This document shows, piece by piece, positions 28,843-45,456 of a stretch of DNA of 64,000 nucleotides. This stretch comes from an alpha proteobacterium BAL199 (lineage in GTDB: Bacteria > Pseudomonadota > Alphaproteobacteria > Thalassobaculales > Thalassobaculaceae): contig ABHC01000018.1 in NCBI GenBank assembly GCA_000171835.1, positions 1 to 64,000 of the forward strand. Direction: 5' to 3'. The position numbers and the translations under genes were made by a program. Positions within the stretch are counted from its first letter, which is position 1. Each line of letters opens with the position of its first letter. A model generated the notes under the pieces. The model did no database searches. It was not told where the DNA came from and was given only the letters and a program-made list of their open reading frames with translations.

Positions 28843-30015
28843 TCACCGGTACGGGTCCGCGGCGTCACGCAGGCCGTCGCCGAAGAAGTTGAAGGCCAGC
28901 ACCACCAGGATGACCGGAATCACCGGTGTCATGATCCAGGGATACAGCTCGACCGCGTTGATGTTCTGCGCCTCGGTCAACAGCACGCCCCACGACGTGA
29001 TCGGTGGCCGCAGACCAAGGCCGAGGAAGCTGAGCGCGGTCTCGCCGAGGATCATCGACGGAATCGACAGGGTGGCCGAGGCGATCAGGTGGCTCATGAA
29101 GCTCGGCAGCAGGTGTCGGCCAATGATCCGCCGCGGTTTCGCGCCCATCAGTTCGGCGGCCACGCAGAAATCCTCTTCGCGCAGCGCCAGGAGCTTGGAG
29201 CGCACCGCCCGGGCCAAACCTGTCCAGTCCAGCAGACCCAGGATCAACGTGATCCCGAAATAAATCACGATCGGACTCCAGGTCACCGGCAACGCGGCCG
29301 ACAGCGCCATCCAGAGCGGCAACTCGGGAAACGATCGCAGGACCTCGATCACCCGCTGGATCGACGCGTCGATCCAGCCGCCGTAGTAGCCGGCGACCCC
29401 ACCGATGACGATGCCGAGCACGAAACTGATGGCAATGCCGATTAGGCCGACCGTCAGCGAAATCCGGGTGCCGTAGACGATGCGCGAAAACATGTCGCGC
29501 CCGAGTCGGTCAGTCCCGAGCAGGAACAGTGTCCCATCCTCGGCCGGGCATACCAGATGCAGATCAGCCTCGAACATCCCCCAGAACTGGTAGGGATCGC
29601 CGGAACAGAAGAACCGCAGCTCCTGCCGCTTGTCCGGATTGGCCACGTAGTCGCGCTTCAGGGTCCGCAGGTCCAGGGTGTAGTCGAGCCCAAGGACGTA
29701 CGGCGCTACGAACCGGCCGTCGTGAAACACCTTCACGCTCTGCGGTGGCGCATAGATGAACTCGGTGTTGCGGCTGGCCAACGCGTACGGCGCGATCAGC
29801 TCGGATATCAGGACCGAGGCGTACAGCAGCAGCAGGAACAGGCCGGAAACCACGGCGAGGCGGTGGCGGCGCAGCTTCCACCACATCATCCGCCACTGCG
29901 ACGCCATGTAGTAGCGTTCCTGCTGCGGCGTCAGGATCTCGTCTGCACCGGGATTGAAGGGCGCCCGGTCGACGAAATGGCGGGCGCGCGGGCGCGGCGT
30001 GTCGGAGACGCTCAT
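28843..30015 (-). CDS. ABC importer permease, OppC/YejE type
   Basis: 390 residues. One N-terminal membrane helix (VVSGLFLLLLYASVLISELI) is followed by a long periplasmic loop of over 100 residues, then the BPD_transp_1 domain beginning LLGTDRLGRDMFSRIVYG with the EAA-like loop ELMGAKPRRIIGRHLLPSF. The C-terminus FNFFGDGLRDAADPYR is typical of OppC/DppC. The long loop is larger than in standard OppC. Last gene of the importer block, overlapping the other permease by 4 bases. Confidence 0.93.
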   Translation of the reverse strand: MSVSDTPRPRARHFVDRAPFNPGADEILTPQQERYYMASQWRMMWWKLRRHRLAVVSGLFLLLLYASVLISELIAPYALASRNTEFIYAPPQSVKVFHDGRFVAPYVLGLDYTLDLRTLKRDYVANPDKRQELRFFCSGDPYQFWGMFEADLHLVCPAEDGTLFLLGTDRLGRDMFSRIVYGTRISLTVGLIGIAISFVLGIVIGGVAGYYGGWIDASIQRVIEVLRSFPELPLWMALSAALPVTWSPIVIYFGITLILGLLDWTGLARAVRSKLLALREEDFCVAAELMGAKPRRIIGRHLLPSFMSHLIASATLSIPSMILGETALSFLGLGLRPPITSWGVLLTEAQNINAVELYPWIMTPVIPVILVVLAFNFFGDGLRDAADPYR

Positions 30016-31010
30016 CGTCCGGTCCCCGCGCCCAGCCGGATGCGTGGGTCAAGCCACGCCAGCGCGAGATCCGAAATCAACATGCCCACCACGGTCAGCG
30101 CCGCCAGGAACATTAGGAACGATCCCGCCAGATACATGTCCTGGCTCTGCAGCGCGGTGATCAGCATCGGCCCGGTGGTCGGCAGCGACAGCACCATGGC
30201 GACCACCGCCGAGCCCGACACCACCTGCGGCAGCATGTTGCCGATGTCGGCGATGAATGGGTTGAGCGCCATGCGCAGAGGGTACTTCAGCAACGCCCGC
30301 ATCGGCGACAGCCCCTTGGCGCGGGCGGTGATCACGTACTGCTTCTGCAACTCGTCGAGCAGATTGGCCCGCAGTCGCCGGATCATCGCCGCCGTGCCAG
30401 CGGTGCCGATCACGATCACCGGCACCCACAGGTGTTCCAGCACCGACAGTACCTTGGGCCAGGTCCAGGGCTGGTCGATGTAGGACGGATCCATCAGCCC
30501 GCCGATCGAGGTGCCGAACCAGACATTCGCGAAGTACAACAGCACTAGCGCCAGCAGGAAATTCGGCGTCGCCAGGCCGATGAAGCCGAGCAGGGTCAGG
30601 CTGTAGTCGCCCCAGCTGTACTGGTGGGTGGCCGAGTAGATCCCGATCGGGAACGCCATCAGGTAGATGAACAGGATGGTGCCGAAGTTCAGCACGATGG
30701 TCAGCATCACCCGGTCGCCGACCACGTCGGCAACCGGCAGCTGGTATTCGAAGCTGTAGCCGAAATCGCCGCGCAGGAATCCGATCGCCCAGTAGAAGTA
30801 CTGCTCCCACATCGGTTTATCGAGGCCATACTGGGCCCGCAACGCCGCGACCTTAGCGAAGTCGACGTTCTCGCCGCGACTCTCCATCTCCGCGATCAGG
30901 GTCGACAGGTAGTCGCCCGGCGGCAACTGGATGATGATGAACGTGATGATGCTGATTGCGATCAGGGTCGGGATCATTATCAGCAGGCGGCGGGCCAGAT
31001 AGTCGAGCAT
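30012..31010 (-). CDS. ABC importer permease, OppB/YejB type
   Basis: 332 residues from the ATG at 31010 (MLDYLARRLLIMIPTLIAIS), the standard OppB start. Six predicted membrane helices, with the EAA loop at YVITARAKGLSPMRALLKYPLRMALNP. The N-terminal FIIIQLPPGDYLSTL matches family members that import peptides or oligosaccharides. Follows the binding-protein gene by 7 bases. Confidence 0.93.
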   Translation of the reverse strand: MLDYLARRLLIMIPTLIAISIITFIIIQLPPGDYLSTLIAEMESRGENVDFAKVAALRAQYGLDKPMWEQYFYWAIGFLRGDFGYSFEYQLPVADVVGDRVMLTIVLNFGTILFIYLMAFPIGIYSATHQYSWGDYSLTLLGFIGLATPNFLLALVLLYFANVWFGTSIGGLMDPSYIDQPWTWPKVLSVLEHLWVPVIVIGTAGTAAMIRRLRANLLDELQKQYVITARAKGLSPMRALLKYPLRMALNPFIADIGNMLPQVVSGSAVVAMVLSLPTTGPMLITALQSQDMYLAGSFLMFLAALTVVGMLISDLALAWLDPRIRLGAGTGR

Positions 31011-31017
31011 ATCTACC

Positions 31018-32979
31018 CTATCTCCGGCTGCGGACGGCAGCGGTGAGCACCGATTCCGGCGTGCGCGGACGCGCCGGACCGAAGAAGAAGGTGTCCGGCC
31101 GGTAGATTCCGAAATGCGCGCCCGGTTCCCAGGCATAGACGCCTTGGACCGGCACGTTGTGCAGTTCCAGATCCACGACGACCGGCTGCAGCACCCCGGC
31201 GATCAGCCCGATGCTGTAGACCTGCTCGGACCAGATATCGAGCATTTCGGCCCAGATCCGGGTGCGTGTCTCCGCCGAATCAGCGGATCGCCAGGACCGG
31301 TACAGCTCCATCAGCCGGCTGGCCTCGGGCAGGTCCGGTTTCTCGCCCGCCTTCCCGCCGGTCTGGTAGTACTGCCCCCATTTCGGCCACATGTACTGGA
31401 TCTGGTCGGTCGGCGCGAACGCCTGCGGGCTGGTCTCGGCGGTGGCCAGGCCGTTCTCGGTGCCTGATGAGATTGCCATCAGGGTCTTGCCGGCGAACAC
31501 CCGGTTGCGGAACACCGTGCGCTGGGTCGGTCGGCTGTACAGCTTGATTCCGGCGGCCATCCAACCGTCATGGATCAGTTCCAGGACATCAGTCTGCTCG
31601 GTACTTTCACCGGCAGTCTCGACCACGATTTCGGCCGGCCGGCCGTCGGGCAGCAGCCGCACGCCTCGGGAATCCCGCTTGGTCAGGCCGATCTCGTCGA
31701 GCAGCGCGTTGGCCGACTTCGGGGAGTAGCTGGCCCATCGCTCGCGCAGCCCCTCGCGGTACAGCGGCGAGGTCGGCAGCAGCGTGTCGGCCCCGTCGAG
31801 GGCTAGGCCGTAGTAGATGACCTCGTTGATCTCGTGCCGGTTGATCGCCAGCGACAGGGCGCGCCGGAACCGCACATCGCGCATCAGCGTGCGCCACACC
31901 GGGTCCTCGGCGTTCATGTTCGGGAACAACGCCAGATGCGCGCCATAGGCGGTGCGCCACAGGTAGGTCTCATAGCCGGACCGGGTCTCGCTCTGGCGCA
32001 GGAAAGTATAGTCGTCGAACGACAGGTAGCGGGCCTGCAGCGCCGACTCCCCGGCGCCGGTCTTTGCCGGGATCAGGCCGGGTGCCGCGACCTGGAACAC
32101 CGCTTCGTCGATGTACGGCAGCTGCCGCCCCTCGGCGTCGACCCGGTGGTAGTACGGGTTGCGGCGGTAGATGAAGCGGTCCGACGGCGGCTCGGTCACC
32201 GCCATCCACGGCTGCAGGGTCGGCAACGCCGGATTGTCGAATTTGTACATGTTGTCGAGCTTGTTGTGCAGCGCCGCCCAGTTGCGCTGGTGCCCGGACT
32301 TGATGCGCTTCTCCAGCTCGGCCGGGTCGGCGTAGTCGCCGTGCACGGTCTTCAGGTAGTGCGCGGGACGGTAGAGATACAGCGGGCTGGCGCCGGCCAA
32401 CGCCGGCAGGAACTCAGGATTCGGTTTCGACCAGGAATACCGCACTACCGTCGGCGACAGGATCTCGACCTTCGGGGCCTCGCCGTCAACCATCAGCTCG
32501 CTCGGCGGACCGGTCGGGGACAATGCCGAGTTGTTGGCCACGTCGTTCCAGAAGTACCGGAAATCCTCGGTGGTGAATGGCTGGCCATCGGACCAGCGAT
32601 GGCCTTCGCGCAGGGTGAAGGTGAACACCCGGTCGTCCTGGACGTCGACCTTGGCCGCCAGATCCGGCACCAGCTCGAAGGTCTTCGGCCGGTACACCAC
32701 CAACCGGGCGTAGCCGTACACCACCATCTGCCGGGTGTCCTTGTCCCGGCCCATGATCATCGTCAGTGTGCCGCCGTACTGGCCGGGCTCCTTTTGCTCG
32801 GCGCCGAGGTCGACCACCGACGGGTTGCGCGGCAGCCGATCGGCGATCGGCGGCAACCGGCCTGCCGACACGTCTTCGGCCAAGACCGGCGGCTCGACAT
32901 AGATCTGCGCGAACCCCGGTCGGCCCGCCGTCAGCAGCATCAGCAGGGTCGCCAGTGCCAGAGCGAGGCGGCCGGTCAC
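31018..32979 (-). CDS. ABC importer solute-binding protein, family 5
   Basis: 653 residues with a signal peptide (LALALATLLMLLTAGRPGFA). SBP_bac_5 features: GGTLTMIMG, LVPDLAAKVDVQDDRVFTF, LREGHRWSDGQPFTTEDFRY and RRALSLAINRHEINEVIYYG. Its length exceeds classic OppA (about 540) and matches the long periplasmic proteins of this family in rhizobia. Ligand class (peptide or oligosaccharide) cannot be fixed; the glycosyltransferase neighbours make a glycan-derived ligand possible. Confidence 0.92.
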   Translation of the reverse strand: MTGRLALALATLLMLLTAGRPGFAQIYVEPPVLAEDVSAGRLPPIADRLPRNPSVVDLGAEQKEPGQYGGTLTMIMGRDKDTRQMVVYGYARLVVYRPKTFELVPDLAAKVDVQDDRVFTFTLREGHRWSDGQPFTTEDFRYFWNDVANNSALSPTGPPSELMVDGEAPKVEILSPTVVRYSWSKPNPEFLPALAGASPLYLYRPAHYLKTVHGDYADPAELEKRIKSGHQRNWAALHNKLDNMYKFDNPALPTLQPWMAVTEPPSDRFIYRRNPYYHRVDAEGRQLPYIDEAVFQVAAPGLIPAKTGAGESALQARYLSFDDYTFLRQSETRSGYETYLWRTAYGAHLALFPNMNAEDPVWRTLMRDVRFRRALSLAINRHEINEVIYYGLALDGADTLLPTSPLYREGLRERWASYSPKSANALLDEIGLTKRDSRGVRLLPDGRPAEIVVETAGESTEQTDVLELIHDGWMAAGIKLYSRPTQRTVFRNRVFAGKTLMAISSGTENGLATAETSPQAFAPTDQIQYMWPKWGQYYQTGGKAGEKPDLPEASRLMELYRSWRSADSAETRTRIWAEMLDIWSEQVYSIGLIAGVLQPVVVDLELHNVPVQGVYAWEPGAHFGIYRPDTFFFGPARPRTPESVLTAAVRSRR

Positions 32980-34877
32980 GACGCCAGCCTGAAGTTTAGG
33001 ATCTGCGGGTCGGCACGCACGAAATGCTCATCGCCCAGGTCCATGAATTGCGGCGTGTGCTGCGCGTCGATGGTGAACGGCGCCGGCCAGTCCGCGGGCT
33101 GCGATGCCCGTTCGTCCATGATCCGGGCGAAATCGAGCGGGTGGTCGAGGCTCGGGTCGGGGACCGCCGCCAGCAGCGCCTGGGTGTAGGGATGCACCGG
33201 GTTGCGGAACAGCTCCTCGCGGGTCGCCAGCTCCACCAGCCGGCCGGCGCACATCACCGCGATCCGGTCGGCGATGTAGTCGACCACGGCAAGGTTGTGG
33301 GAGATGAACAGATAGGTAAGCCCCAGGGTCGCCTTCAGATCCTTCAACAGGTTCAGCACCTGGGCCTGGATCGACACGTCGAGCGCCGAGACCGGCTCGT
33401 CACAGATCAGCATCGGCGGCCGCAGGGCCAGCGCCCGGGCGATGCCAATGCGCTGACGCTGGCCGCCGGAGAAACTGTGCGGGTAGCGGCTGAGGTGGCG
33501 CGCGTCGAGCCCGACCAGCTTCATCAGCTCCGACACCATTTCACGCCGCCAGGCGGGTGTGCCGATCCCGTGAATCACCAGCGGCTCGGCGATGATGTCG
33601 AACACCGGCATTCGCGGATTCAGCGAACCGAACGGGTCCTGGAACACGAACTGCAGCTTGCGCCGGAACACCGCCAGCGCGTCGCCCTCCAGGCCGAGCA
33701 CGTCGACCGGACCGTCGTCGTCGGTGAAGGTGACCCGGCCGCTGTCCGGCCCGATGGCCCGCATGATGACTTTCGACAGCGTGGTCTTGCCGCACCCTGA
33801 CTCGCCCACCAGGCCCAGGCATTCGCCGCGCCGAACCTCGAACGAGACATCGTCCAGCGCCATCACCCGTTTCGCGGTGCCGCCGAACAACCCGGCCTTG
33901 CGAATGGCGTAGGTCTTCGACACGCTTTCGACCGACAGCAACGGCTCGGTCTGCGGCGTGGAACGGGCTGTCTGATGTCCGGAGTCCGACAGCAGGTGGC
34001 CGGTCTCGGCCTTGATCTCGCGGATCGGCTTCAACCGCTCTCCCGGCGCCATATCGAAGCGCGGCACCGCCGCCATCAGCGACCGCAGGTACGGGTGCTC
34101 GGGACGCCGGAAGATATCCTCGACGTCGCCGGACTCCATGACCCGGCCGCGGTACATCACCACCACTTCCTCGGCCACATTGGCGACCACGCCAAGATCG
34201 TGGGTGATCATCAGGACCGCCATCTGCAGTTCCGTCTGCAGGTCCCGGATCAGCTTCAGGATCTGCGCCTGGATGGTCACGTCCAGCGCGGTGGTCGGTT
34301 CGTCGGCGATCAGCAGGGCAGGTCGGCAGACCAGAGCCATCGAGATCATGGCGCGCTGGCGCAGGCCACCCGACAGTTCAAATGGATAGGTCTTCAGTGC
34401 CCTGGCCGGATCCGGGAACCCGACCAGACGCAGCATGTCGCGAGTCAGCTCGCGGGCCTCCGACCCGGAGACCGTACGGTGCAGGCGCAGCGCCTCGGTG
34501 ATCTGGTCGCCGATGGTGTGCAGCGGCGACAGCGAGGTCATCGGCTCCTGGAAGATGATCGAGATGCGGCCGCCCCGCAGGTCGCGCATCGGCCGGCCGT
34601 CGGGTGCCAGCCGGACGATGTCGGTGATCGTGCCGGGCTTGTTCGGATCGGCGAACAGGATCGAGCCGCCCAGCACCCGGGCCGGCCTCGGCAGCAACCC
34701 CATGATTGCCTGGCTGACCACCGATTTTCCGGAGCCGGACTCACCGACCAGCGCCACGGTACCGCCGCGCCGGATCTGGAACGACACGCCGTCGACGGCG
34801 ACCAGCCGCCCCTCCGGCAGGTCAAATCCGATGCGCAGGTCGTTAACGCGGAGCAGCGGCGTCGCGCGATCCTTCAT
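32976..34877 (-). CDS. ABC importer ATPase, fused OppD-OppF type
   Basis: 633 residues with two complete ATPase halves. First: Walker [20 protein letters not shown], signature [12 protein letters not shown], Walker [14 protein letters not shown]. Second: [46 protein letters not shown]. The YejF-like fusion energises the two permeases. Its start overlaps the stop of the small membrane protein gene by 4 bases (ATGA), tying the importer to the glycosyltransferase operon. Confidence 0.95.
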
Positions 34878-35407: not shown

Positions 35408-36207
35408 GCCGTCCTCCGAATGTCGCTTCCGGCTTCCACCACCGGTGTTGTCGTGACCGCCGCCAAAGCCGCCGTCGGGTCCAGCCATCGCACCGCCGCA
35501 TGCCGTGACAGCATCGCGAACAACGGCTGCCAAGCCTGCCACGTCCCTGCTTGGGTCACCAAATGATGCGACAGGATGCCAATCGGCCCGACGTGTTGCG
35601 GGATACGCACCTCAAGCGCCGATGCCACCGCCTCGACCGTCAGAGGTACCCGCCCGGCGTGCCAATCGATCAGGTCGACATGGGTATCCAGCCGCGGCAC
35701 ATCAGACGGGGCCGATGGGCGGTGCCAAGGCGCGAAGCCCGACAGCGCCATCACACCGGTTCCGCCCAGGCGATCGAGCAGATCGTCGCCGAGCCGGTTC
35801 CAGGGCGGCACGAAGCAAGGCACCAGCCGATCACCCGCCAGCGCCGCCAGCCGGCGCCGGCCGTCGGCAATCTCGGCAAGCCGGGCCTCGATCGGTCGCT
35901 CTGGTCCGAACTCGGACTTCTTGGCACCGGTCGCCGAATGATCGGCGTGCATCCAGCCGTGAACGAACAACCGCGCCGACGTACCTTCCAGCGCCGGCAG
36001 CACGTCGACAACCATTCGTCCCGCCACCGCCGCCAGGGCCGGAACGATGCCGTGCTCCCCCAGCGCGCCAAGCAAGACGTCGAGCGCCGCTGACGGCCGT
36101 TCCAGGTCGTCGTCGCGCCACCACAGGTCGACGGTGCCGCCGACGGCACCAATCGCGTCGAGCGTGGAACACAGGCGGTCGACGCCGTCGGTGCCGCGAC
36201 CGGTCAT
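35404..36207 (-). CDS. Polysaccharide deacetylase-like protein
   Basis: 267 residues with no signal peptide. Resembles NodB-like deacetylases of the group found in glycosyltransferase operons: VDLWWRDDDLERPSAAL (candidate metal-site Asp pair), LFVHGWMHADHS (candidate His) and CFVPPWNRLGDDLLDRLG, then IGILSHHLVTQAGTWQAW near the C-terminus. It would remove acetyl groups from a sugar or lipid-linked glycan in the cytoplasm. Four-base overlaps on both sides. Confidence 0.8.
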   Translation of the reverse strand: MTGRGTDGVDRLCSTLDAIGAVGGTVDLWWRDDDLERPSAALDVLLGALGEHGIVPALAAVAGRMVVDVLPALEGTSARLFVHGWMHADHSATGAKKSEFGPERPIEARLAEIADGRRRLAALAGDRLVPCFVPPWNRLGDDLLDRLGGTGVMALSGFAPWHRPSAPSDVPRLDTHVDLIDWHAGRVPLTVEAVASALEVRIPQHVGPIGILSHHLVTQAGTWQAWQPLFAMLSRHAAVRWLDPTAALAAVTTTPVVEAGSDIRRTA

Positions 36208-37370
36208 GCCGCCGCCCGTTCGCGCATCACCCTCGCCACCAGTTCGCCGGTGGCCTTGGCGCCATCGAGATCAACCGCCGGCACCGCATCGCGCGGACGG
36301 GCCATCGCCCGGTTGATCGCCGATTTCAGGGTTTCGATGCCGAGTTCGGCCTCGGGAACCACCTCCAGGGCGCCGACATCGGCCAGCAGATCGGCACGCA
36401 ACCGCTGCTCGGTCTCCACCCCGCCTTCGAACGGCACCACGACCGCCCGGGCGCGCACCGCCAGCAGCTCGAGGAGGGTGTTGTAGCCGGCCTGGCTGAT
36501 CGACAGCGCCGCACCGGCCATCAGCGCCGGCAAGTCCGGCCGCATGGTTTCGACCACCAGATTCGGCCGGCCAAGCGACCGAAGGTAGTCGATGGTATCC
36601 GGACGCATATGATGCCCGGTCACGAACCGCCAGGTCCGATCGGCCAGCGGCAGGCTCGGCATCGCGTCGGCGACCCGGCGCATGAAATCGTGCCCGACGG
36701 CACCACCACCCGCAGAGATCAGGACCTCGCCGGTAGCCAGCGGATCGGTATCCGGCACGGCCAGATCGTCGGCGTTCACCACGTAGCCGGTATAGGTCAG
36801 AGGCACCCGGATGTCGGCCGCCATCGGGAAGGTCCGCTCGAGCCGGATCAACCGGGGATCGGCGTGAATCAGCGCGGCGTCGTAGTAGGCGTTCAGGGTA
36901 TCGACGATCTCCTGGTTGCGATCGGCCCGCGGCTTGGTCACCAGGATGTCGCGCATCGACGAGAACACAGCCGGTCGCCAGGCTGCTGCCTGCGCCGCCT
37001 GCAACAGCGGGATCAATTCGAACCGCATTTGCCGGCGTCCGAACGGAAACAGCTCGGTGATCACCGCCGCCGGCCGCCGCTCCTGCAGCAGGCCGAGCAG
37101 TCGGTCGCGGCGGGCATCCCTGAAGGTATCGTCGATCGGCTGGTCGTGTTCATCGACCAGGATCTTGAACGCATCGTCCAAGGCCCGGACCGGTGGCAGC
37201 TGGACCAACTCGGCGCCACCCAGCGGCAGGTGCGGTACCGGCATCCCGCCGGACACGAAATAGACTGCCATCCCGTGCGCCGTCAGGCCGCGGGCCACCG
37301 CCGCGGCGCGGCGCAGATGGCCGATGCCGAGCAGGTTCTGGACGTACAGCAGGACGCGCGGTGCGCTCAT
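36204..37370 (-). CDS. Glycosyltransferase, MurG-like GT-B fold
   Basis: 388 residues. N-terminal VLLYVQNLLGIGHLRRAAAV with the GxGHLRR loop seen in MurG/GT28-like enzymes. The C-terminal half has VLISAGGGAVGHDFM and MAGAALSISQAGYNTLLELLA, the nucleotide-sugar site, followed by VVVPFEGGVETEQRLRAD. Related in layout to the enzyme at 40397 (both begin with a YxxxxLGxGHLRR segment), so the operon has two paralogous transferases. Confidence 0.88.
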   Translation of the reverse strand: MSAPRVLLYVQNLLGIGHLRRAAAVARGLTAHGMAVYFVSGGMPVPHLPLGGAELVQLPPVRALDDAFKILVDEHDQPIDDTFRDARRDRLLGLLQERRPAAVITELFPFGRRQMRFELIPLLQAAQAAAWRPAVFSSMRDILVTKPRADRNQEIVDTLNAYYDAALIHADPRLIRLERTFPMAADIRVPLTYTGYVVNADDLAVPDTDPLATGEVLISAGGGAVGHDFMRRVADAMPSLPLADRTWRFVTGHHMRPDTIDYLRSLGRPNLVVETMRPDLPALMAGAALSISQAGYNTLLELLAVRARAVVVPFEGGVETEQRLRADLLADVGALEVVPEAELGIETLKSAINRAMARPRDAVPAVDLDGAKATGELVARVMRERAAA

Positions 37371-37957
37371 TCAGGCGGCTCCAGCGATATGTTGGCGCGT
37401 TTCAAGCTCCAATGCCCGGTCGCATCGAGAAGGAACAGATGGGCCGCCCCCCAGTCAAGCCGCGCCGGAGGCTTGCCGGTCATGTCCCAGCCGGTCGCCA
37501 GGGACAGCGCGGCCCGGATCACTCCCTTGTGCGAGATCGCCGCGGTATCGCGGCCATCCGCCAGCAGCCGACGTCCGAACTCCTCCAGGCGCGCCTGGAT
37601 CTCGCGCGGCGTCTCGCCACCGGGCGGCCGGAAATCAAGACCGAGCGCCTCGTTGACGGCGACGGCCTCAGGGTTCTCAGCCCTTACCTGCCCCAGCGTC
37701 CGCCCCTCCCAGGCACCGAAATCCATCTCAATCAGTGCCGGCTCAATGTCCGCGGTCACGCCCAGCAATGCCGCCGTCTCGCGTGCCCGGGCCAGCGGGC
37801 TGGTCACCCACCGAAATGTCGTGAATTCAGGTGGCAGCACCTTCTGTCGCACCGCCTGCCATCCGAGGGACGACAGCGGGATGTCGGATCGTCCCTGCAG
37901 ACGCTTGGTGGCGTTCCACTCGGTCGGTCCGTGCCGCAGCAGGACAAGCTGGATCAT
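37367..37957 (-). CDS. Histidine phosphatase family protein
   Basis: 196 residues. The phosphoglycerate-mutase-like RHG motif LVLLRHGPTEWNATKRLQGR contains the catalytic His; the second His lies in AAISHKGVIRAALS, and the acidic motif is EMDFGAWEGRTLGQV. The size and absence of a signal peptide point to a cytoplasmic phosphatase, perhaps acting on a phosphorylated sugar within this operon. Overlaps both neighbours by 4 bases. Confidence 0.9.
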   Translation of the reverse strand: MIQLVLLRHGPTEWNATKRLQGRSDIPLSSLGWQAVRQKVLPPEFTTFRWVTSPLARARETAALLGVTADIEPALIEMDFGAWEGRTLGQVRAENPEAVAVNEALGLDFRPPGGETPREIQARLEEFGRRLLADGRDTAAISHKGVIRAALSLATGWDMTGKPPARLDWGAAHLFLLDATGHWSLKRANISLEPPE

Positions 37958-39099
37958 GCCCGACCGTCCGTCCGACGCTCAAGCGCCGCCCGAAACCACC
38001 CGTCCATCGCGATGGAAGCGCCGTCGAGTGTATGTTCGGCCAGAACCGTTTGCCGCGCCGCCTCGCCCATCAACCTCCGCCGGGCCGGATCGTCCAGCAG
38101 TGCCGCCACTGCGCCTGCAAACGCGTTGCCGTCACCCACTGGTACCAAGACCCCGGTCCGCCCGTCGCGCACGATGTCCGGAACGCCCCCAACATCGCCC
38201 GCCACCACCGGCAATCCGGCCGCCTGAGCCTCCAGCAGCGCCATTCCGTAGGCCTCCTGAACCGCCGGCCATACCATCAGGTCGGCAGCGGCATAGATCT
38301 CGTTCAGACGAGTCGCATCGACGGCACCGATCAACCGTACCCGATCGCCAAAGGGAGCTACAGCGGCCACCACGTCAGCCCTAGTCGGGCCGTCGCCGAC
38401 CACGATCAGCCGCCACGGGCGATCGGGCAGCTTGGCAAGCGCCCCCGCCAGCACCCGATAGGATTCGGTCTTGGCACCCGGCCGCATCATCCCGACCGCC
38501 AGCAGCCACGGCTCTTCAGCCGGCAGTCCAAGGCGTTGCGCAAGACGTCCGCGCGCGGTCGCGTCGACCGTCCCGGCCTGCGGTTCCAGGAATGGGCGCT
38601 GCCGTTCGTAGCGGCCATCGACACCGAGCCTCGGTTCAACCGCGACGGCATCCCGGCTGTTGAAGCCGATCACCAGATCGGCCCGGGCCAACGCCGCCAG
38701 CACCGCATGGTGACCGACGTCCCAGGGACCGTCGGCGCGTTTGCCGGCAACCGACGCCTCGGCAACGACGTAAGGGATGTCCAACGCGTCGGCGACCGCC
38801 GGCCCGATCCAGTCCGGCGCTTTGTAGTACAGATGGTAGGTGAACCAGAGGTCGGGCGCCGGGCGCCTGCCCGACCGCACCGATCGGACATAGCGATCCG
38901 CCAGCCGACGGCCCAGGCGGGCCATGCGTCGCTGCCGGTCCGGAACACCCGCCGCATCACGGCTGCGCAGCCGCGCCGCCAACTCGACCGTGTGTCCCGC
39001 CTGTCCCAACGCTCCGATCAACAACCGCGCCATCGTGCGATCGCCCGAAGGCCGGTCGGAATCTGGCGGCTTGAGCGGGGCGTAGAACGCGACCCTCAT
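37954..39099 (-). CDS. Glycosyltransferase family 4 protein
   Basis: 381 residues. N-terminal FYAPLKPPDSDRPSGDRTMA is the acceptor-side loop; the C-terminal GT4 site is WLLAVGMMRPGAKTESYRVLA, VGDGPTRADVVAAV, DLMVWPAVQEAYGMALLEAQ with the catalytic EX7E-like glutamates, and AAGLPVVAGDVGGVPDIV. Retaining GT-B enzyme of unknown donor. Second of three consecutive glycosyltransferases in transcription order. Confidence 0.92.
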   Translation of the reverse strand: MRVAFYAPLKPPDSDRPSGDRTMARLLIGALGQAGHTVELAARLRSRDAAGVPDRQRRMARLGRRLADRYVRSVRSGRRPAPDLWFTYHLYYKAPDWIGPAVADALDIPYVVAEASVAGKRADGPWDVGHHAVLAALARADLVIGFNSRDAVAVEPRLGVDGRYERQRPFLEPQAGTVDATARGRLAQRLGLPAEEPWLLAVGMMRPGAKTESYRVLAGALAKLPDRPWRLIVVGDGPTRADVVAAVAPFGDRVRLIGAVDATRLNEIYAAADLMVWPAVQEAYGMALLEAQAAGLPVVAGDVGGVPDIVRDGRTGVLVPVGDGNAFAGAVAALLDDPARRRLMGEAARQTVLAEHTLDGASIAMDGWFRAALERRTDGRA

Positions 39100-40400
39100 G
39101 CGACGTCAGCAAGCCCCGCACCGGCGGTCAGACCGAAGCGCGCGGCCAGGCGGTTCAAGCCGGCGTCATGCCCGAAGGCGGTGCGCACCCGATCGCGGCC
39201 AGCGCTCCCCAGCGCCGCCCGGCGGCTTGGATCGGACGCCAATTCGCTCAGGGCGGCCGCCAAAGCCATGGGATCCTGAGGCGGGACCAGCACGCCGGTC
39301 GCACCGTCGTCGATCAGTTCCGGGATTGCCGACACCCGGGTCGCCACGGTGGCCAGCCCGGACGCCTGCGCCTCCATCAGCACGTTCGGCAGGCCGTCGC
39401 GGTCGCCATCCCCGGCGATTTTGCTGGCCAGCACGAACAGATCGGCGTCGGCCAGGGCCGCCAGCACCGCCGCCCGTGGCTGAGCGCCGCGCCAGGTGAT
39501 CCGGTCGCCGATGCCGAGGCGACGGGCCTGATTTCGCAGAGTGTCCTTCAGCGCACCGCCGCCGATGTGGACAAATCGCCAGTGCAGATCGGACGGCAAC
39601 GCGGCCAGCGCGGCCAGAAGGTCATCGTACCCCTTCTTCACCACCGCCCGGCCGATCGACACGATGATCACGGGAGCGTCGGCACGGCTGCCGTCGCGCG
39701 CCGGTCGCGGCTGCGGCGTCGGAAAATCGGCGAGGTCCAGGCCGTGATACAGCAGGTCCACCCGCTCCCGATCCGGCGCGAGTGCTGCCAAGTGCTCGCA
39801 TCCGACGGCGGTGCAGGTGACCGCCCACGCTACGTCGGCCAGTTTCTCGCGCTTCTCCCAGTCGGGCGTGGTCCAGATGTCCTTGGCGTGAGCCGACGCC
39901 GACCAGCTTCGCCCGGTGATCAGCGCAGCGTAGCGCGCGACCGAGGACGGCGTGTGCAGGAAGTGGGCGTACAGATGCCCGACGGCCGGGTCCAATTCGG
40001 CGGCCAGGACGCATGCCTGACCGAAACGCCGGATCCGGTTGGGGGTCGGGTCACGCAGCAGGTCACGCCACCAAGTTGCCAGCGCCGAACCGTATCCGGG
40101 CAGGCGTCGAACCGACCACCAGCCGCGCAGCACCCGCAATGGCTCCTGATACAGGTACTCCGGCAAGTAGCTGACCGGGGCCGTGATGGCCTCATGGACC
40201 GGGTGCATGCTGCGATCGGTCGGATGGCGCAGTGCCACGATCCGAAAATCCAACCCGCGGCGCTGCAGGCCGAGCAGTTCCTGAGCAATGAACGTCTCGG
40301 ACAGCCGGGGGTAACCCTTCAGGATCACCGCTACCGGTCCGGGCGTGACACGCCGGCGCAGCGCGGCTGCCGACGCGGGAGCCCCCGCCGACGCGTTCAC
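39096..40400 (-). CDS. Glycosyltransferase family 4 protein
   Basis: 434 residues. N-terminal VAVILKGYPRLSETFIAQEL resembles exopolysaccharide transferases of the colanic-acid WcaL type. The C-terminal half has IIVSIGRAVVKKGYDDLLAAL, FVHIGGGALKDTLRNQARR, DGLPNVLMEAQASGLATVAT and the ATGVLVPPQDPMALA motif. Probably adds a sugar to a lipid-linked intermediate. Coupled by ATGA overlaps to the genes on both sides. Confidence 0.92.
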   Translation of the reverse strand: MNASAGAPASAAALRRRVTPGPVAVILKGYPRLSETFIAQELLGLQRRGLDFRIVALRHPTDRSMHPVHEAITAPVSYLPEYLYQEPLRVLRGWWSVRRLPGYGSALATWWRDLLRDPTPNRIRRFGQACVLAAELDPAVGHLYAHFLHTPSSVARYAALITGRSWSASAHAKDIWTTPDWEKREKLADVAWAVTCTAVGCEHLAALAPDRERVDLLYHGLDLADFPTPQPRPARDGSRADAPVIIVSIGRAVVKKGYDDLLAALAALPSDLHWRFVHIGGGALKDTLRNQARRLGIGDRITWRGAQPRAAVLAALADADLFVLASKIAGDGDRDGLPNVLMEAQASGLATVATRVSAIPELIDDGATGVLVPPQDPMALAAALSELASDPSRRAALGSAGRDRVRTAFGHDAGLNRLAARFGLTAGAGLADVA

Positions 40401-41626
40401 GCCGGTTGGCGGAACGGCACGACCGGACGCGCCGCCCGCGCCTTGACCCAGCGATCGACCAGTTGCGCCACCCGGTCCAATCCATCCAGCAGCGGCAGTC
40501 CCGTCGCTTCGGACGGCAGCTTCTGGGCCGGCAAGCGACGCAGCGCCTCGGCCATCGCCTTCGGGTCGCGGTCACCGTCCTCGACCATCACGCTGAGCAG
40601 GCCCAGTTCCTCAGCCCGCTTGGCCCGGATGTACTGCTCAAGCCGCGGTTCGGTCCGAGGGACGATGATCGCCCGTTTATCGAACGAAAGGATCTCACAG
40701 AAGGTGTTGTAGCCGCCCATCGCCACGATTGCTGCACACCGCGACATCAGCGCCTCGATCCGGGAATCGAAGGTGATGACGTGCACCCGATCGAGCCGCT
40801 CGGCTCGCTCCATCAGTTCGTTCTGCTGCTCATGCGGCATGAACGGACCAAGCACCATCAGGACCGGATAGGGCAGTTGGGAATCTTCTTCATACGCCCG
40901 CAGCACCCAGTCCATCATCGGCTCACCGTCCCCGCCACCACCCGCGGTCACCAGCAGATACGGCTCGTCGCCAAACGGAATGACCGGCGCGGGCGTAGTG
41001 ACCTTGGAGGCATGACGGCGCAAATAGCCGGTATAACGGGTCTTCAGTCGGACCGAGGCCGGAATCTCCACGCCGTCGAACGGGTCGCAGACCTCTTTCA
41101 CGCCATACACCCAGATCTCGTCGTAGAGGTCCTGCAATGCCGGCAGAACCTTCTTGCGCTCCCATTCCGGGACCAGCAGTTCCGGCTCGTCCATCACGTC
41201 GCGCAGGCCGAGGATCAGCGGGGTGCCCCGCGCCTTCAGCATTTCCAGCGTGTCCTTCACCTCGCCACGCAAGCCCCAGGGCTCCTTGTCGACGATGAAC
41301 ACGTCCGGGTCGAAGTACTCCGCGGTGTGCTTGATGATGGCGGCGCGCAACTGCACCGTCTCCTCGATGTCCATGTGCAGGGACAGCGAGGTGTAGTCGC
41401 CGTTGCGCAGCTTGATGACGCCGGGAATCCGCACGAAGTCGACACGCGTGCGGAAATCGAAGCTGCCGATGATCGGCGAACCCGACAGGATCAGCACGCT
41501 GATCTCGGGGTCGGCTTCGACAAGCGCATGCGCGATCGCACGGCACCGGCGAAGATGGCCAAGGCCGAGCGTGTCATGGCTGTACATCAAGACACGCGCT
41601 GGCGTCCGACGTTTGGGATGAGTCAT
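40397..41626 (-). CDS. Glycosyltransferase, MurG-like GT-B fold
   Basis: 409 residues; the first gene of the long minus-strand operon, with GAGGACG upstream of the ATG at 41626. N-terminal VLMYSHDTLGLGHLRRCRAI and C-terminal YLLVTAGGGGDGEPMMDWVL, then IVAMGGYNTFCEILSFDKRAIIVP, are the GT28-like donor site. DVFIVDKEPWGLRGEVKDTL in the N-half is a conserved block of this subfamily. Homologous in layout to the 36204 gene. Confidence 0.9.
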   Translation of the reverse strand: MTHPKRRTPARVLMYSHDTLGLGHLRRCRAIAHALVEADPEISVLILSGSPIIGSFDFRTRVDFVRIPGVIKLRNGDYTSLSLHMDIEETVQLRAAIIKHTAEYFDPDVFIVDKEPWGLRGEVKDTLEMLKARGTPLILGLRDVMDEPELLVPEWERKKVLPALQDLYDEIWVYGVKEVCDPFDGVEIPASVRLKTRYTGYLRRHASKVTTPAPVIPFGDEPYLLVTAGGGGDGEPMMDWVLRAYEEDSQLPYPVLMVLGPFMPHEQQNELMERAERLDRVHVITFDSRIEALMSRCAAIVAMGGYNTFCEILSFDKRAIIVPRTEPRLEQYIRAKRAEELGLLSVMVEDGDRDPKAMAEALRRLPAQKLPSEATGLPLLDGLDRVAQLVDRWVKARAARPVVPFRQPA

Positions 41627-41803: not shown

Positions 41804-44461
41804 ATGGAACCGACTATCTACCGGTTCATCTTCCGTCACAGCAAGCGCGAGCAGATCGTTCTGCTGATCATGACGGCGTTGTCGTTCCCATTTCTCTACT
41901 ACTCACTCGATCTGCCGAAAAAAATCATCAACGAAGCGCTGGGCGCCAAGGGAAAGGCTGCATTCCCGACCAATTGGCTCGGGTTCGAGTTCGACCAGTT
42001 GGAGTACCTCTGGACCCTGTCCGGCGTGTTCCTGGCGTTGGTGTGAATCAACGGCGCGTTCAAATACGTCATCAACGTCTATCGCGGCCAGCTGGGCGAG
42101 CGGATGCTGCGCCGGCTGCGCTTCGACCTGTACGCCCGCATCCTTCGGTTTCCGCTGGGCAGATTCCGGCGGATGAGCCAGGGCGAGATCATTCCGATGG
42201 TCACCGCCGAGGTCGAGCCGCTCGGCGGCTTCATCGGCGACTCGATCTCGCTGCCGGCATTCCAGGGCGGCACGCTGATCACGATCCTCGCCTTCATGTT
42301 CATTCAGGACCCGATACTCGGACTCGCGGCGATCTCGCTGTATCCGATCCAGGGCTACGTGATCCCAAAGCTGCAACGCCAAGTGAACCTGCTCGGCAAG
42401 GAGCGGGTCCGTACCGTCCGCACCATGTCGGACAAGATCGGGGAGACCGTCTCGGGGGTGCTGGAGGTTCACGCCAACGACAACGCCAGGCTGATGCTGG
42501 CGCGTTTCGCGGAGCGGCTGAACCGGATCTACGACATCCGATTCGAGATCTATAAGAAAAAATTCTTCATCAAGTTCCTGAACAACTTTCTGGCCCAGCT
42601 GACGCCGTTCTTCTTCTATTCGATCGGCGGGTACCTGGTGATCCGCGGCGAGCTGTCGATTGGCGCCATGGTGGCCGTCCTGGCGGCGTACAAGGATCTC
42701 TCCGCCCCGTGGAAAGAATTGCTCGGCTACTACGAGCGCAAGGAAGACGCGCGGATCAAGTACGAGCAGGTGATCGAGCAGTTCGATCCACCGACGATCA
42801 TGGATCCGGCGCTTCAGACCGGTGACGCGGACGCCGGTCCGGCCGAATCGGCTGGAATCCGCTCGTCAAACCTCGGTTGGATCGACGACGACGGCGAGAT
42901 GCAGGTCGAAGGTATCAGCATCAAGATCGAGCCGGGCGAGCGGGTGGCCTTGCTGGGCCCGCCGAACGGCGGCAAAGAGGCGCTGGGCCTGCTGCTCGCG
43001 CGGCTGGTCCTGCCGACCAGCGGCAACCTCAATTTCGGCGATCGGGACATGACCGTCCTGCCCGAGGCGGTCACCGGTCGACGCCTTGGCTATGTGGGAC
43101 CGGCGGCGTTCGCGTTCTCCACATCGATCCGCGAGAACCTGCTGATCGGGGCCATGCATCGACCGTTGATCGAGGCCGAACGTGACGCAGCGGCACAAGC
43201 GGTTGCGAAGCGTGCGGCCGAGAACGCGGCTATAGCCGGCAACTCGACCGACGATCCGCACGCCGACTGGGTGGACTATGCTGCGATCGGTGTTGACGAC
43301 GCCGGTGGCCTGTCGAAGCGGCTGGTTGAGCTGCTCGATGTCGTCGATCTGTGGGACGACTGTTATCAGCTCGGGCTGCGCGGCACGCTCGACCCGCAAA
43401 AGCGGCCGGACATCGCCGAGCGCATCCTGGATGCCCGCCGCAGCTTCGCCGACCGTCTCGCCGGGGATCCCTCACTCGCTGAACTGGTCGAGCCGTTTGC
43501 CGCCGACCGCTACAACTCCAATGCGTCGGTTGCCGAGAACCTGCTGTTCGGCACGCCGGTCGACGGCACGTTCGCCAGCGATTCCATAGCCGCCAGTCCG
43601 TACGTCCGCCAGATCCTGGGCACCGTCGGTCTGACCGACGATTTCCTGACGATGGGCCGGGACATGGCGGCCACCATGGTCGAACTGTTTGCCGATCTGC
43701 CGGCCGACCATGAGTTCTTCTCTCAGTTCAGCTTCATTTCACCGGACGACCTGCCGGAGTTCCAGGCGCTGGTTACCCGGGTCGATCGCAGTGGGGTCGG
43801 CGGCCTGTCGGAGGATGACCGCAGCCGGTTGCTGTCGTTGCCCTTCAAGCTGATCGCCGCACGCCATCGGCTCGGTTTGCTCGATGATGCGATGAAACTT
43901 CGGATCCTGGAGGCCCGCAGGGCGTTCGCCGAGAATCTGCCATCGGAAATGGCCAACGCGGTCGCCTTCTTCACGGCCGACACCTACAACGCGGCCGCCT
44001 CGGTCCAGGACAACTTCCTGTTCGGCAAGATCGCCTACGGACAGGCCGACGCGCCGGCCCGGGTCGGCAAGGTGATCGCCGAAGTCCTTGAGAGCCTCGA
44101 TCTGCGCGCGACCGTGATCGAGGTCGGGCTGGACTTCGAAGTCGGTATCGGAGGTTCACGGTTGAGTGCGGCACAACGCCAGAAGATCGGAATTGCCCGC
44201 ATGCTGCTGCGCCGACCCGACATCTGCGTGTTCAACGACGCGGTGGGCAGCATCGAATCGGCTGCCCAGAACCGGGTGATCGACCGGGTTCTCGCCGAGA
44301 CCGAGGGACGAACGGTGATCTGGTCACTGCAACATCCCGACCTGGCCCGTCGGTTCCAGCGGGTCCTGGTGTTGCGCGGCGGTCGGGTGGTGGAAGATGG
44401 CGCGCCCGACAGCCTCGACCGCAGCGGTACCGAATTCCACACCATGGCAGCTGGGAGCTGA
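41804..44461 (+). pseudogene. ABC-exporter-like protein with degenerate, expanded ATPase; in-frame TGA
   Basis: An 885-residue frame broken only by TGA at 42044-42046 (codon 81); the same frame continues at once with INGAFKYVINVYRGQLGERM, clearly the rest of the same membrane domain. Residues 1-330 form an ABC exporter membrane domain. The ATPase part is odd: the Walker A-like loop is GPPNGGKEA (codons 385-393, Glu for Ser/Thr), the signature LSAAQ (787-791) replaces LSGGQ, and the Walker B position reads CVFND (Asn/Asp for Asp/Glu, 808-812); the H-loop His is kept (SLQHP, 844). About 340 extra residues between Q-loop and signature contain two related modules. The TGA may be a real nonsense mutation or a sequencing error. 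Confidence 0.8.
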
Positions 44462-44479: not shown

Positions 44480-44938
44480 ATGAGCATCAATCAGGAAGTT
44501 GAACTTCTGCGGAACATTCCGCTGTTCGCCAAGATCGAGCCGGCCAAGCTGAAACTGCTTGCGTTCACTTCGGAGCGTCTCACCTACCAGCCGGAGCAGA
44601 CGCTGTGTCACCAGGGAGATATTGGGGATGCGGCGTACATCATCATCGACGGCGAGGCGGTGGTTCGCATCGGCACGTCTGCAGGAGAGATCGAGGTCGC
44701 ACGGCTTGGAAAGGGCGATGTCGTCGGCGAGATCGCGATCCTGTGCGATGTGCCCCGCACCGCCACCGTCCTGGCGGTCGACCGGGTGACGGTCCTCAAG
44801 ATCACCAAGGAGCTGTTCTTCCGATTGGTCAACGAGTTCCCGCAGATCGCCATCGAGATCATGCGCGAACTCGCGGCGCGACTGGAGCGGACGAACGCGC
44901 AGCTCCGGGACGCGGTCAGCCGCAACGGCACCACCTGA
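44480..44938 (+). CDS. Cyclic nucleotide-binding domain protein (single domain)
   Basis: 152 residues: only a Crp-like cNMP-binding beta barrel (LRNIPLFAKIEPAKLKLLAF, AYIIIDGEAVVRIG, GKGDVVGEIAILCDVPRTAT) and the C-helix region, with no DNA-binding domain. The phosphate-binding cassette matches G-E-x-A-x(6)-R-T-A, consistent with cyclic nucleotide binding. It starts 18 bases after the ABC gene with GGGAGAG upstream. It probably serves as a regulatory subunit for the ABC protein or a neighbour. Confidence 0.9.
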   Translation: MSINQEVELLRNIPLFAKIEPAKLKLLAFTSERLTYQPEQTLCHQGDIGDAAYIIIDGEAVVRIGTSAGEIEVARLGKGDVVGEIAILCDVPRTATVLAVDRVTVLKITKELFFRLVNEFPQIAIEIMRELAARLERTNAQLRDAVSRNGTT

Positions 44939-44964: not shown

Positions 44965-45456
44965 ATGAGTCGATTGGACAGCGCGATCCGCCGTCTGCAG
45001 GCCCAGAAGGCCGCGCTGGAGGATGCGGCGCGGCGGACAGCCGGCCTGCGCGGTTTGGTGCTGGAGTTCGGACTGGGCAATGGCCGCACCTACGACCATC
45101 TGCGCACGATTCTGTCCAACCGGCGGATCGTGGTGTTCGATCGTCAGGTCGCGGCCCATCCGGACTGCATCCCGCCGGACGAGGACCTGTATCTCGGCGA
45201 CCTGTTTAAGACATTGCCGCGAGCCATTGCCGAACTTGGCCGCAGCGCGGTCATCGCTCATCTCGACATCGGCACCGGCAACAAGGACCAGAGCGTCGCA
45301 CTGGTCACCCGAGCGGCGCCGATGATTGCCGACCTGCTGGCCAGTGGGGCCATCCTGGTCAGCGATCAACCGATTGAAAGCATCGCAGGCCTGATCCCAC
45401 TTCCGTTGCCCGACGGAATCGCCGACGGGCGTATTCACATGCTGCAGCGGACCTGA
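44965..45456 (+). CDS. Small class I SAM-methyltransferase-like protein
   Basis: 163 residues from the ATG at 44965 (GAAGGT upstream), 26 bases after the cNMP gene. After a coiled-coil-like start (RLDSAIRRLQAQKAALEDAA) comes LVLEFGLGNGRTYDHLR, a motif I-like loop, then RIVVFDRQVAAHP (motif II) and AVIAHLDIGTGNKDQSV. The core is short for a methyltransferase, so it may lack a substrate lid or act only as a partner. Third gene of the plus-strand unit. Confidence 0.8.
   Translation: MSRLDSAIRRLQAQKAALEDAARRTAGLRGLVLEFGLGNGRTYDHLRTILSNRRIVVFDRQVAAHPDCIPPDEDLYLGDLFKTLPRAIAELGRSAVIAHLDIGTGNKDQSVALVTRAAPMIADLLASGAILVSDQPIESIAGLIPLPLPDGIADGRIHMLQRT

Follow-up and report, generated by a model that had tools for sequence, protein, structure and literature searches.

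The gene at 41804-44461 of the window, meaning the whole 64,000-nucleotide stretch analysed here (positions 1 to 64,000 of contig ABHC01000018.1 from alpha proteobacterium BAL199), encodes an ATP-binding cassette (ABC) half-transporter whose nucleotide-binding domain (NBD) is altered at every canonical catalytic motif examined and carries two inserted modules. Codons are numbered from the ATG at 41804. In the assembly, an in-frame TGA breaks the gene off upstream of the ATPase region, and 804 codons remain open past it. In this downstream part, Pfam detects ABC_membrane (PF00664, E 1.2e-20) and ABC_tran (PF00005, E 3e-12), and the fusion of a PF00664 transmembrane domain (TMD) to an ABC NBD places the protein, by fold and descent, among ABCB-like ABC exporters. 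Genes for glycosyltransferases, a peptide-type importer and a cyclic-nucleotide (cNMP)-binding protein lie nearby (Table 1).

Table 1. Features of the transporter gene and its neighbours in the window
Feature	Position	Strand	Evidence
ABC half-transporter, whole frame (885 codons, ATG at 41804, one in-frame TGA)	41804-44461	+	PF00664, PF00005
In-frame TGA, codon 81	42044-42046	+	Frame translation
Transmembrane domain past the stop, residues 82-330, most conserved part	42047-42793	+	PF00664, E 1.2e-20; dN/dS 0.10; equal length in all 31 rows
Degenerate Walker A, GPPNGGKEAL (K391, E392), codons 385-394	42956-42985	+	Sequence and alignment
First Q-loop-type motif, SIRENLLIG, codons 441-449	43124-43150	+	Asn in 72/73
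Inserted module A, residues 450-583, ending in SVAENLLFG (575-583)	43151-43552	+	Asn in 73/73; helices and ENL motif in models
Inserted module B, residues 584-741, ending in SVQDNFLFG (733-741)	43553-44026	+	Asn in 73/73; hhalign A versus B, E 7e-16
Degenerate signature, LSAAQ, codons 787-791	44162-44176	+	Sequence and alignment
Degenerate Walker B end, Asn811-Asp812	44234-44239	+	Alignment
H-loop position, Gln 843 (neighbour His 844)	44330-44332	+	Homologue alignment
Separate protein with cNMP-binding domain, 152 amino acids	44480-44938	+	PF00027, E 1.7e-20; GEIAILCDVPR phosphate-binding cassette
Methyltransf_17 protein	44965-45456	+	PF12692, E 2.5e-53
GT28-type glycosyltransferase, divergent	40397-41626	-	PF04101
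GT4-type glycosyltransferase	39096-40400	-	PF00534
GT4-type glycosyltransferase	37954-39099	-	PF00534, PF13692
Histidine phosphatase	37367-37957	-	PF00300
Second GT28-type glycosyltransferase	36204-37370	-	PF04101
Peptide-type importer: two permeases, SBP_bac_5 binding protein, fused double ATPase	28843-34877	-	Family scan

In place of the Walker A consensus GxxGxGK[ST], the window protein has GGKE; the aspartate and catalytic glutamate that end Walker B are replaced by Asn-Asp, and the LSGGQ signature reads LSAAQ. An earlier note on the same DNA had reported these three alterations, along with three Q-loop-type motifs and the related helices RILDARRSFA (at 540) and RILEARRAFA (at 700), and all of them are borne out at the codons it gave. 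Two of its claims needed correction. The H-loop histidine that it considered retained had been misaligned, as homologues place a glutamine at the H-loop position and the histidine is the residue after it, and the insert, put at some 340 residues, spans about 290 (450-741). Judged from its sequence, the NBD has the look of a pseudo-ATPase.

Homologues with an E-value of 1e-60 or better are found in 43 of 81 relatives' genomes, the window's own included. A phylum-wide draw of 299 genomes, again counting that genome, yields the insert in 25 (E 1e-8) and the transmembrane part in 22 (E 1e-30), and the insert is also present in 256 plasmid records. Motifs were counted in 81 rows, made up of 52 frames of at least 860 amino acids from relatives' genomes (window included) and 29 from the phylum-wide draw. 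Removal of eight near-duplicates leaves 73 distinct members, a set that excludes fragments and TMD-only proteins and for which 17 of the 47 matches listed among relatives were initially unfetched, some being added later. Three marks of an active site, Walker A K[ST], Walker B DE and the H-loop histidine, are all missing in 58 of the 73 members; 13 keep one of them, two keep two and none keeps all three. The Walker A lysine is present in 37 members, and the next residue (392) is Asp or Glu in 50 and Ser or Thr in five. In Walker B, position 811 is Asn in 49 members and Asp in 13, and position 812 is Glu in 29 and Asp in 16. The H-loop position holds His in 13 members and Gln in 21, and the third signature position is Gly in five. 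At the site that we take to be the adenine-stacking A-loop residue, Tyr occurs in only six members, with three Tyr and two Trp at the preceding position. The members closest to canonical are L047 (KE, DE and H) and L081 (KS and DE); at the other end, a Rhodobacteraceae branch is without the P-loop, the signature and the H-loop histidine and keeps the modules.

The usual pattern of constraint is therefore inverted: the asparagine of the module motif is present in 73/73 members in both copies, versus 37/73 for the Walker A lysine. The alignment of homologues that the earlier note had proposed finds the altered motifs and both modules conserved, with the insert kept in every member. Canonical homologues without modules, which that note had named as the sign of mere decay, are absent among the 73, where no protein is canonical at Walker A, Walker B and the H-loop together. 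On these grounds, and because the ratio of nonsynonymous to synonymous substitution rates (dN/dS) between the window and Thalassobaculum fulvum is 0.17 for the gene and 0.19 for the insert, the altered motifs and modules are family traits under purifying selection. The proteins form an apparently undescribed family of proteobacterial half-transporters; no description of it was found in the open-licence PMC literature, judged by titles and abstract openings among the matches listed.

A charge swap between an acidic residue 392 and Asn 811 was considered as compensatory covariation, since the two coincide in 42 of 50 raw rows versus 7 of 23 (Fisher p 2e-5). It was dropped because starred tree branches hold only five independent pairs, which give no significance, and the association is read as shared ancestry.

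Two side observations concern the spread of the family. In five members with family code f47 (L097-L100 and L104), which we guess to be sphingomonad-like, the insert is kept (E 1e-58 to 1e-62) and the TMD falls below the threshold of the TMD search, so that the modules outlive the TMD sequence. Genome G157 (family code f23) contains three diverged transporter paralogues, L162, L163 and L164.

The distance between the first and third Q-loop-type motifs is 241-356 residues across the 73 members (median 283), and the motif asparagine is kept at the three places in 72, 73 and 73 of them. When family profiles of the module ends (500-600 versus 655-760) are compared with hhalign, they match with a probability of 98.6, an E-value of 7e-16 and a score of 85.3, at 43% identity over 61 columns. 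Among 46 control segments, run forward and reversed, the top scores are 84.6 and 36.0, from segments that overlap module B, and 26.5 and 26.1, from segments that hold the first Q-loop; the best of the others is 17.5. Whole modules (440-600 versus 575-760) align over 145 columns with an E-value of 1.6e-13. These profile comparisons show modules A and B to be homologous, evidently as diverged tandem copies. The duplication proposed in the earlier note thus stands; its view that the repeated unit mimics the Q-loop region alone does not, as the unit is larger.

Kinship of the modules with the native ABC fold is harder to read. Module B matches the native C-terminal part weakly (probability 11.7, E 0.0025, 118 columns), and module A more weakly still (probability 3.2). 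When the insert alone is compared by VIA-align, Z does not exceed 4.8, and ranks 1-5 and 9 of the best nine are ABC proteins with Z 3.4-4.8. The part of these proteins that aligns is presumably their Q-loop-to-helical region. The pattern is suggestive of three helical-subdomain segments in tandem, two of them extra, with each module a copy of the whole segment rather than of the Q-loop alone. Searches for other relatives returned nothing: Foldseek gives no matches for the insert in the PDB at E 0.001 or better and none in BFVD, Pfam finds no family in window positions 43139-44158 at E 0.1, NCBIfam finds none in the inserts of three relatives at E 1, and the insert profile meets nothing below E 0.7 among PDB sequences. 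The VIA-align and profile values are weak and prove neither this kinship nor a new fold.

AlphaFold2 modeling of the window NBD (555 residues, 24 aligned rows) gives a mean predicted local distance difference test score (pLDDT) of 90.4 and a predicted template modeling score (pTM) of 0.84. The top VIA-align row is SUR2B, which aligns over 255 of the 555 residues with Z 29.3 and a root-mean-square deviation of 2.2 and is tied with many exporters. This match is spread over the whole model, which, together with a Foldseek comparison, indicates that the ABC core is intact around the insert. Folded alone, the insert is compact (pLDDT 89.6, pTM 0.75). By structure prediction, which the earlier note had also put forward as a check, the NBD is predicted to keep an ABC fold around a compact insert that has no convincing match among solved structures.

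The in-frame TGA, which the earlier note touched on only through the word 'repaired', appears to be particular to this copy. The closest homologue, from Thalassobaculum fulvum (L038), is uninterrupted and 83% identical over residues 1-803 of the part past the stop, and in 47 other full-length members aligned the codon 81 site is a sense codon of variable kind. The window's genome (6.1 Mb in 69 contigs) holds the transporter in single copy. Selenocysteine insertion was considered and rejected because the residue at this site varies widely among relatives. It is also unlikely because no SelB in the window's genome reaches the cut-off (the best has 190 of 242 bits) and because the sole tRNA-Sec match above the cut-off is read as tRNA-Ser by ARAGORN. 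Compared with T. fulvum, dN/dS is lowest in the TMD, and lineage-specific amino-acid changes number 27 in the window protein and 15 and 39 in its two nearest relatives, with no clear acceleration. The low dN/dS and the lack of acceleration mean that the interrupted copy bears no sign of long decay, and the TGA is a recent null mutation or a sequence error.

Neighbouring genes were counted in 57 loci, some of them from one genome and many with cut flanks. This count omits a duplicate (L156), the TMD-only L193 and L194, L195 and L196, and the short or near-duplicate L038-L040, L042, L044, L049, L056, L060 and L062. A cNMP-binding domain accompanies the transporter in 51 loci. Two or more of the cluster glycosyltransferases occur in 33, and a histidine phosphatase is found in 25; importer genes appear in 24 loci, Methyltransf_17 in 18, and 10 loci have a cyclase-like gene, one of these (L057) having supplied a query. 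Transporter and cNMP domain form a single fusion protein in L046, L057 and L061, and in L048 (7937-8905) and L052 (5554-6450) the fusion includes both a cNMP domain and a degenerate GGDEF-like domain without the GGDEF signature. The phosphate-binding cassette, as G-[ED]-x8-R, is kept in 50 of the 51 cNMP domains, with Glu in 42, and the window's own neighbour at 44480-44938 combines PF00027 with G-E-x8-R in the manner of CRP-type cNMP-binding domains. It is likely a cyclic-nucleotide sensor. Within its own genome this protein has only three weak matches (25-29% identity), and for the GT28 protein the sole matches are its neighbour in the cluster and a weak one elsewhere (E 6e-4), so the linkage of the two genes to the transporter is not background. 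A comparable row in Rhizobium leguminosarum WSM2304 runs from an annotated adenylate/guanylate cyclase through an importer, three glycosyltransferases and three other genes to the transporter and a cNMP protein.

The Sinorhizobium meliloti symbiosis gene msbA2 (SMb21191) was considered as a possible member of the family and, judged by gene order, is probably different. The family copy on pSymB (strain Rm41) sits behind an importer and three glycosyltransferases. The msbA2 gene, in contrast, is described as part of a four-gene operon led by an acyltransferase gene, with glycosyltransferase genes upstream of msbA2 (PMC3687685, PMC5596199, PMC12239276). Published passages on SMb21196 and SMb21200 gave no further lead.

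A second group of relatives has no NBD. These TMD-only proteins (L063-L074, L193 and L194) are about 380-454 amino acids long and 44-49% identical, and they adjoin copper-resistance-type genes (CopA, CopB, cupredoxin, PCuAC-like) in 14 of 14 loci. L069 and L193 probably represent a single contig, and in L066, L069 and L193 the sole gene of this type is the PCuAC-like one, which matches below the Pfam cut-off. More distant TMD-only proteins (L132-L135, 24-27% identical to such a protein) have no copper genes within their 3.7 kb. Since relatives without an NBD exist, the TMD can be kept without an ATPase.

Taken together, these features favor, tentatively and with rather less than even confidence in the whole chain, a pseudo-ATPase exporter, probably of a glycan, that is controlled by its cyclic-nucleotide partner and not by ATP hydrolysis. 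The protein would form a homodimer and change conformation without drawing on ATP hydrolysis. Its two extra tandem segments, inserted between the Q-loop and the signature helix, each consist of a Q-loop-type strand, an ENL helix and further helices ending in an ARR-type helix, and they could offer additional docking faces. A neighboring or fused cNMP-binding domain would set the state of the transporter, and the adjoining glycosyltransferases would, as gene order suggests, make the glycan or glycolipid that the transporter carries. We infer all three elements, namely operation without ATP hydrolysis, control by the cNMP partner and glycan cargo, from the evidence above. The earlier note's suggestion that such a protein binds ATP without hydrolyzing it, or uses a new regulatory mechanism, is plausible. 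A bolder version is doubtful as a whole: ligand control would have replaced the ATP-hydrolysis engine, the helical subdomain would stand three times in tandem, a cNMP-bound partner, separate or fused, would drive or gate glycan translocation, and the graded series from near-canonical motifs, through lost motifs with modules, to the TMD alone in copper operons would record how the ATPase was shed.

Several observations weigh against a hydrolysis-free, cNMP-controlled exporter. The helical-subdomain kinship of the modules depends on the low Z values and the weak profile match given above. Across the 57 loci, glycosyltransferases are absent from 24, the importer from 33 and a detected cyclase from 47, including the window, and L054, L055 (Motiliproteus), L154 and L171-L173 yielded no cNMP domain. 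The retained Walker A lysine and a carboxylate at 812 in 45 of the 73 members would allow nucleotide binding or slow hydrolysis, and L047 and L081 preserve DE together with, respectively, the H-loop histidine and KS. The residues retained in these members also support the view that the transporter is still ATP-driven, either because the altered residues bind MgATP differently or because, as in exporters with one degenerate site, it works together with a canonical half-transporter or ATPase whose gene lies elsewhere. In L047, from a gammaproteobacterial metagenome-assembled genome, an independent ABC ATPase of 247 amino acids, canonical at both Walker A and Walker B, lies directly upstream (425-1165), and a loose pattern scan, made without family scans, finds an open reading frame (ORF) with one canonical Walker A-to-B pair in 16 of the 57 loci. 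In addition, the window's own genome encodes other ABC proteins, given that the transporter finds 56 further matches there at E 0.001, and a degenerate site occurs in 21 of the 29 human ABC transporters that are not homodimers, according to the excerpt of PMC7756269. Yet no canonical half-exporter stands at a constant place beside the transporter: only L163 and L190 of the 16 loci have a half-exporter-like layout by pattern, several of the others hold importer ATPases cut by the locus end or ORFs that were not identified, one is a window ORF about 8 kb beyond the transporter, and BLAST of the transporter over the loci (threshold 60 bits) flags no second exporter. A heterodimer with a canonical ABC protein encoded elsewhere is possible. 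A homodimer, however, would have both composite sites degenerate, and the Rhodobacteraceae branch has lost Walker A, the signature and the H-loop yet retains the modules. Continued ATP drive in either form is judged rather unlikely.

It is unlikely, too, that the protein is a membrane receptor or scaffold instead of a transporter, with the ABC fold serving as a switch that signals to the cNMP protein or to glycan synthesis. The sulfonylurea receptor uses its ABC fold in this way, and SUR2B heads the structural rows; loss of catalytic residues beside a strongly conserved TMD (mean column identity 69%) and the fusions to cNMP and degenerate GGDEF-like domains would also suit such a role. But TMD conservation and glycan-gene linkage fit transport equally well, and the Z ranking, with its many tied transporters, does not discriminate. 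Far less credible is the idea that this copy is merely a decayed pseudogene with a nonsense codon and worn motifs. The TGA at codon 81 speaks for it, but the same altered motifs occur in intact relatives, and the long open frame past the stop, the low dN/dS and the unremarkable number of lineage-specific changes all argue against it.

Degenerate ABC sites elsewhere work beside one canonical site, as described in the excerpt of PMC7756269. A family whose members themselves have no canonical site, and whose duplicated modules are conserved more tightly than the ATP site, would make hydrolysis-free ABC transport, and whatever drives it, testable. It would also give a function to conserved clusters in rhizobia, Azospirillum and marine Alphaproteobacteria, for which the database records examined offer no more than generic labels of the type 'ABC transporter ATP-binding protein'. 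If the exporter is indeed cNMP-controlled, cyclic nucleotides would be expected to act directly in glycan export.

Among known systems, MsbA, NdvA/ChvA and other ABCB-like half exporters share the PF00664 TMD and the ABC fold, and MsbA is the best NCBIfam profile (E 6.9e-40). The part past the stop scores 137.1 bits against the 602-bit cut-off of the MsbA equivalog TIGR02203 and 75 bits against the 585-bit cut-off for chvA, and the window protein differs from these exporters in its degenerate catalytic motifs and about 290 extra residues. TAP, TmrAB, CFTR and BSEP likewise have an NBD that has lost the Walker B glutamate and H-loop residues, according to the excerpt of PMC7756269; however, one of their sites is canonical, whereas the window family has no constantly linked canonical partner and has added modules. 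SbmA/BacA (SLiPT) proteins, in which an ABC-type TMD is run on protons according to the excerpt of PMC13316013, have a TMD without an NBD and so parallel the TMD-only relatives of the family. The window protein, unlike them, has an NBD fold, and the one TMD-only relative scanned (L067) matches PF00664 with no SbmA family listed, a kinship judged from its Pfam rows alone. YejBEF-YepA and Opp-type importers resemble the window's neighbors, with an SBP_bac_5 protein, two permeases and a double ATPase; the Agrobacterium YejBEF-YepA system imports muropeptides in the account excerpted from PMC9790009. Here the likeness is one of gene content rather than sequence comparison, and the importer is merely a linked neighbor of the transporter. 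HetC, a cyanobacterial PCAT, is similar in joining an ABC exporter to a cNMP-type domain, which the excerpt of PMC10986499 describes as needed for function and as binding ppGpp. HetC differs from the window family in having an essential ATPase, a peptidase domain and an N-terminal cNMP domain.

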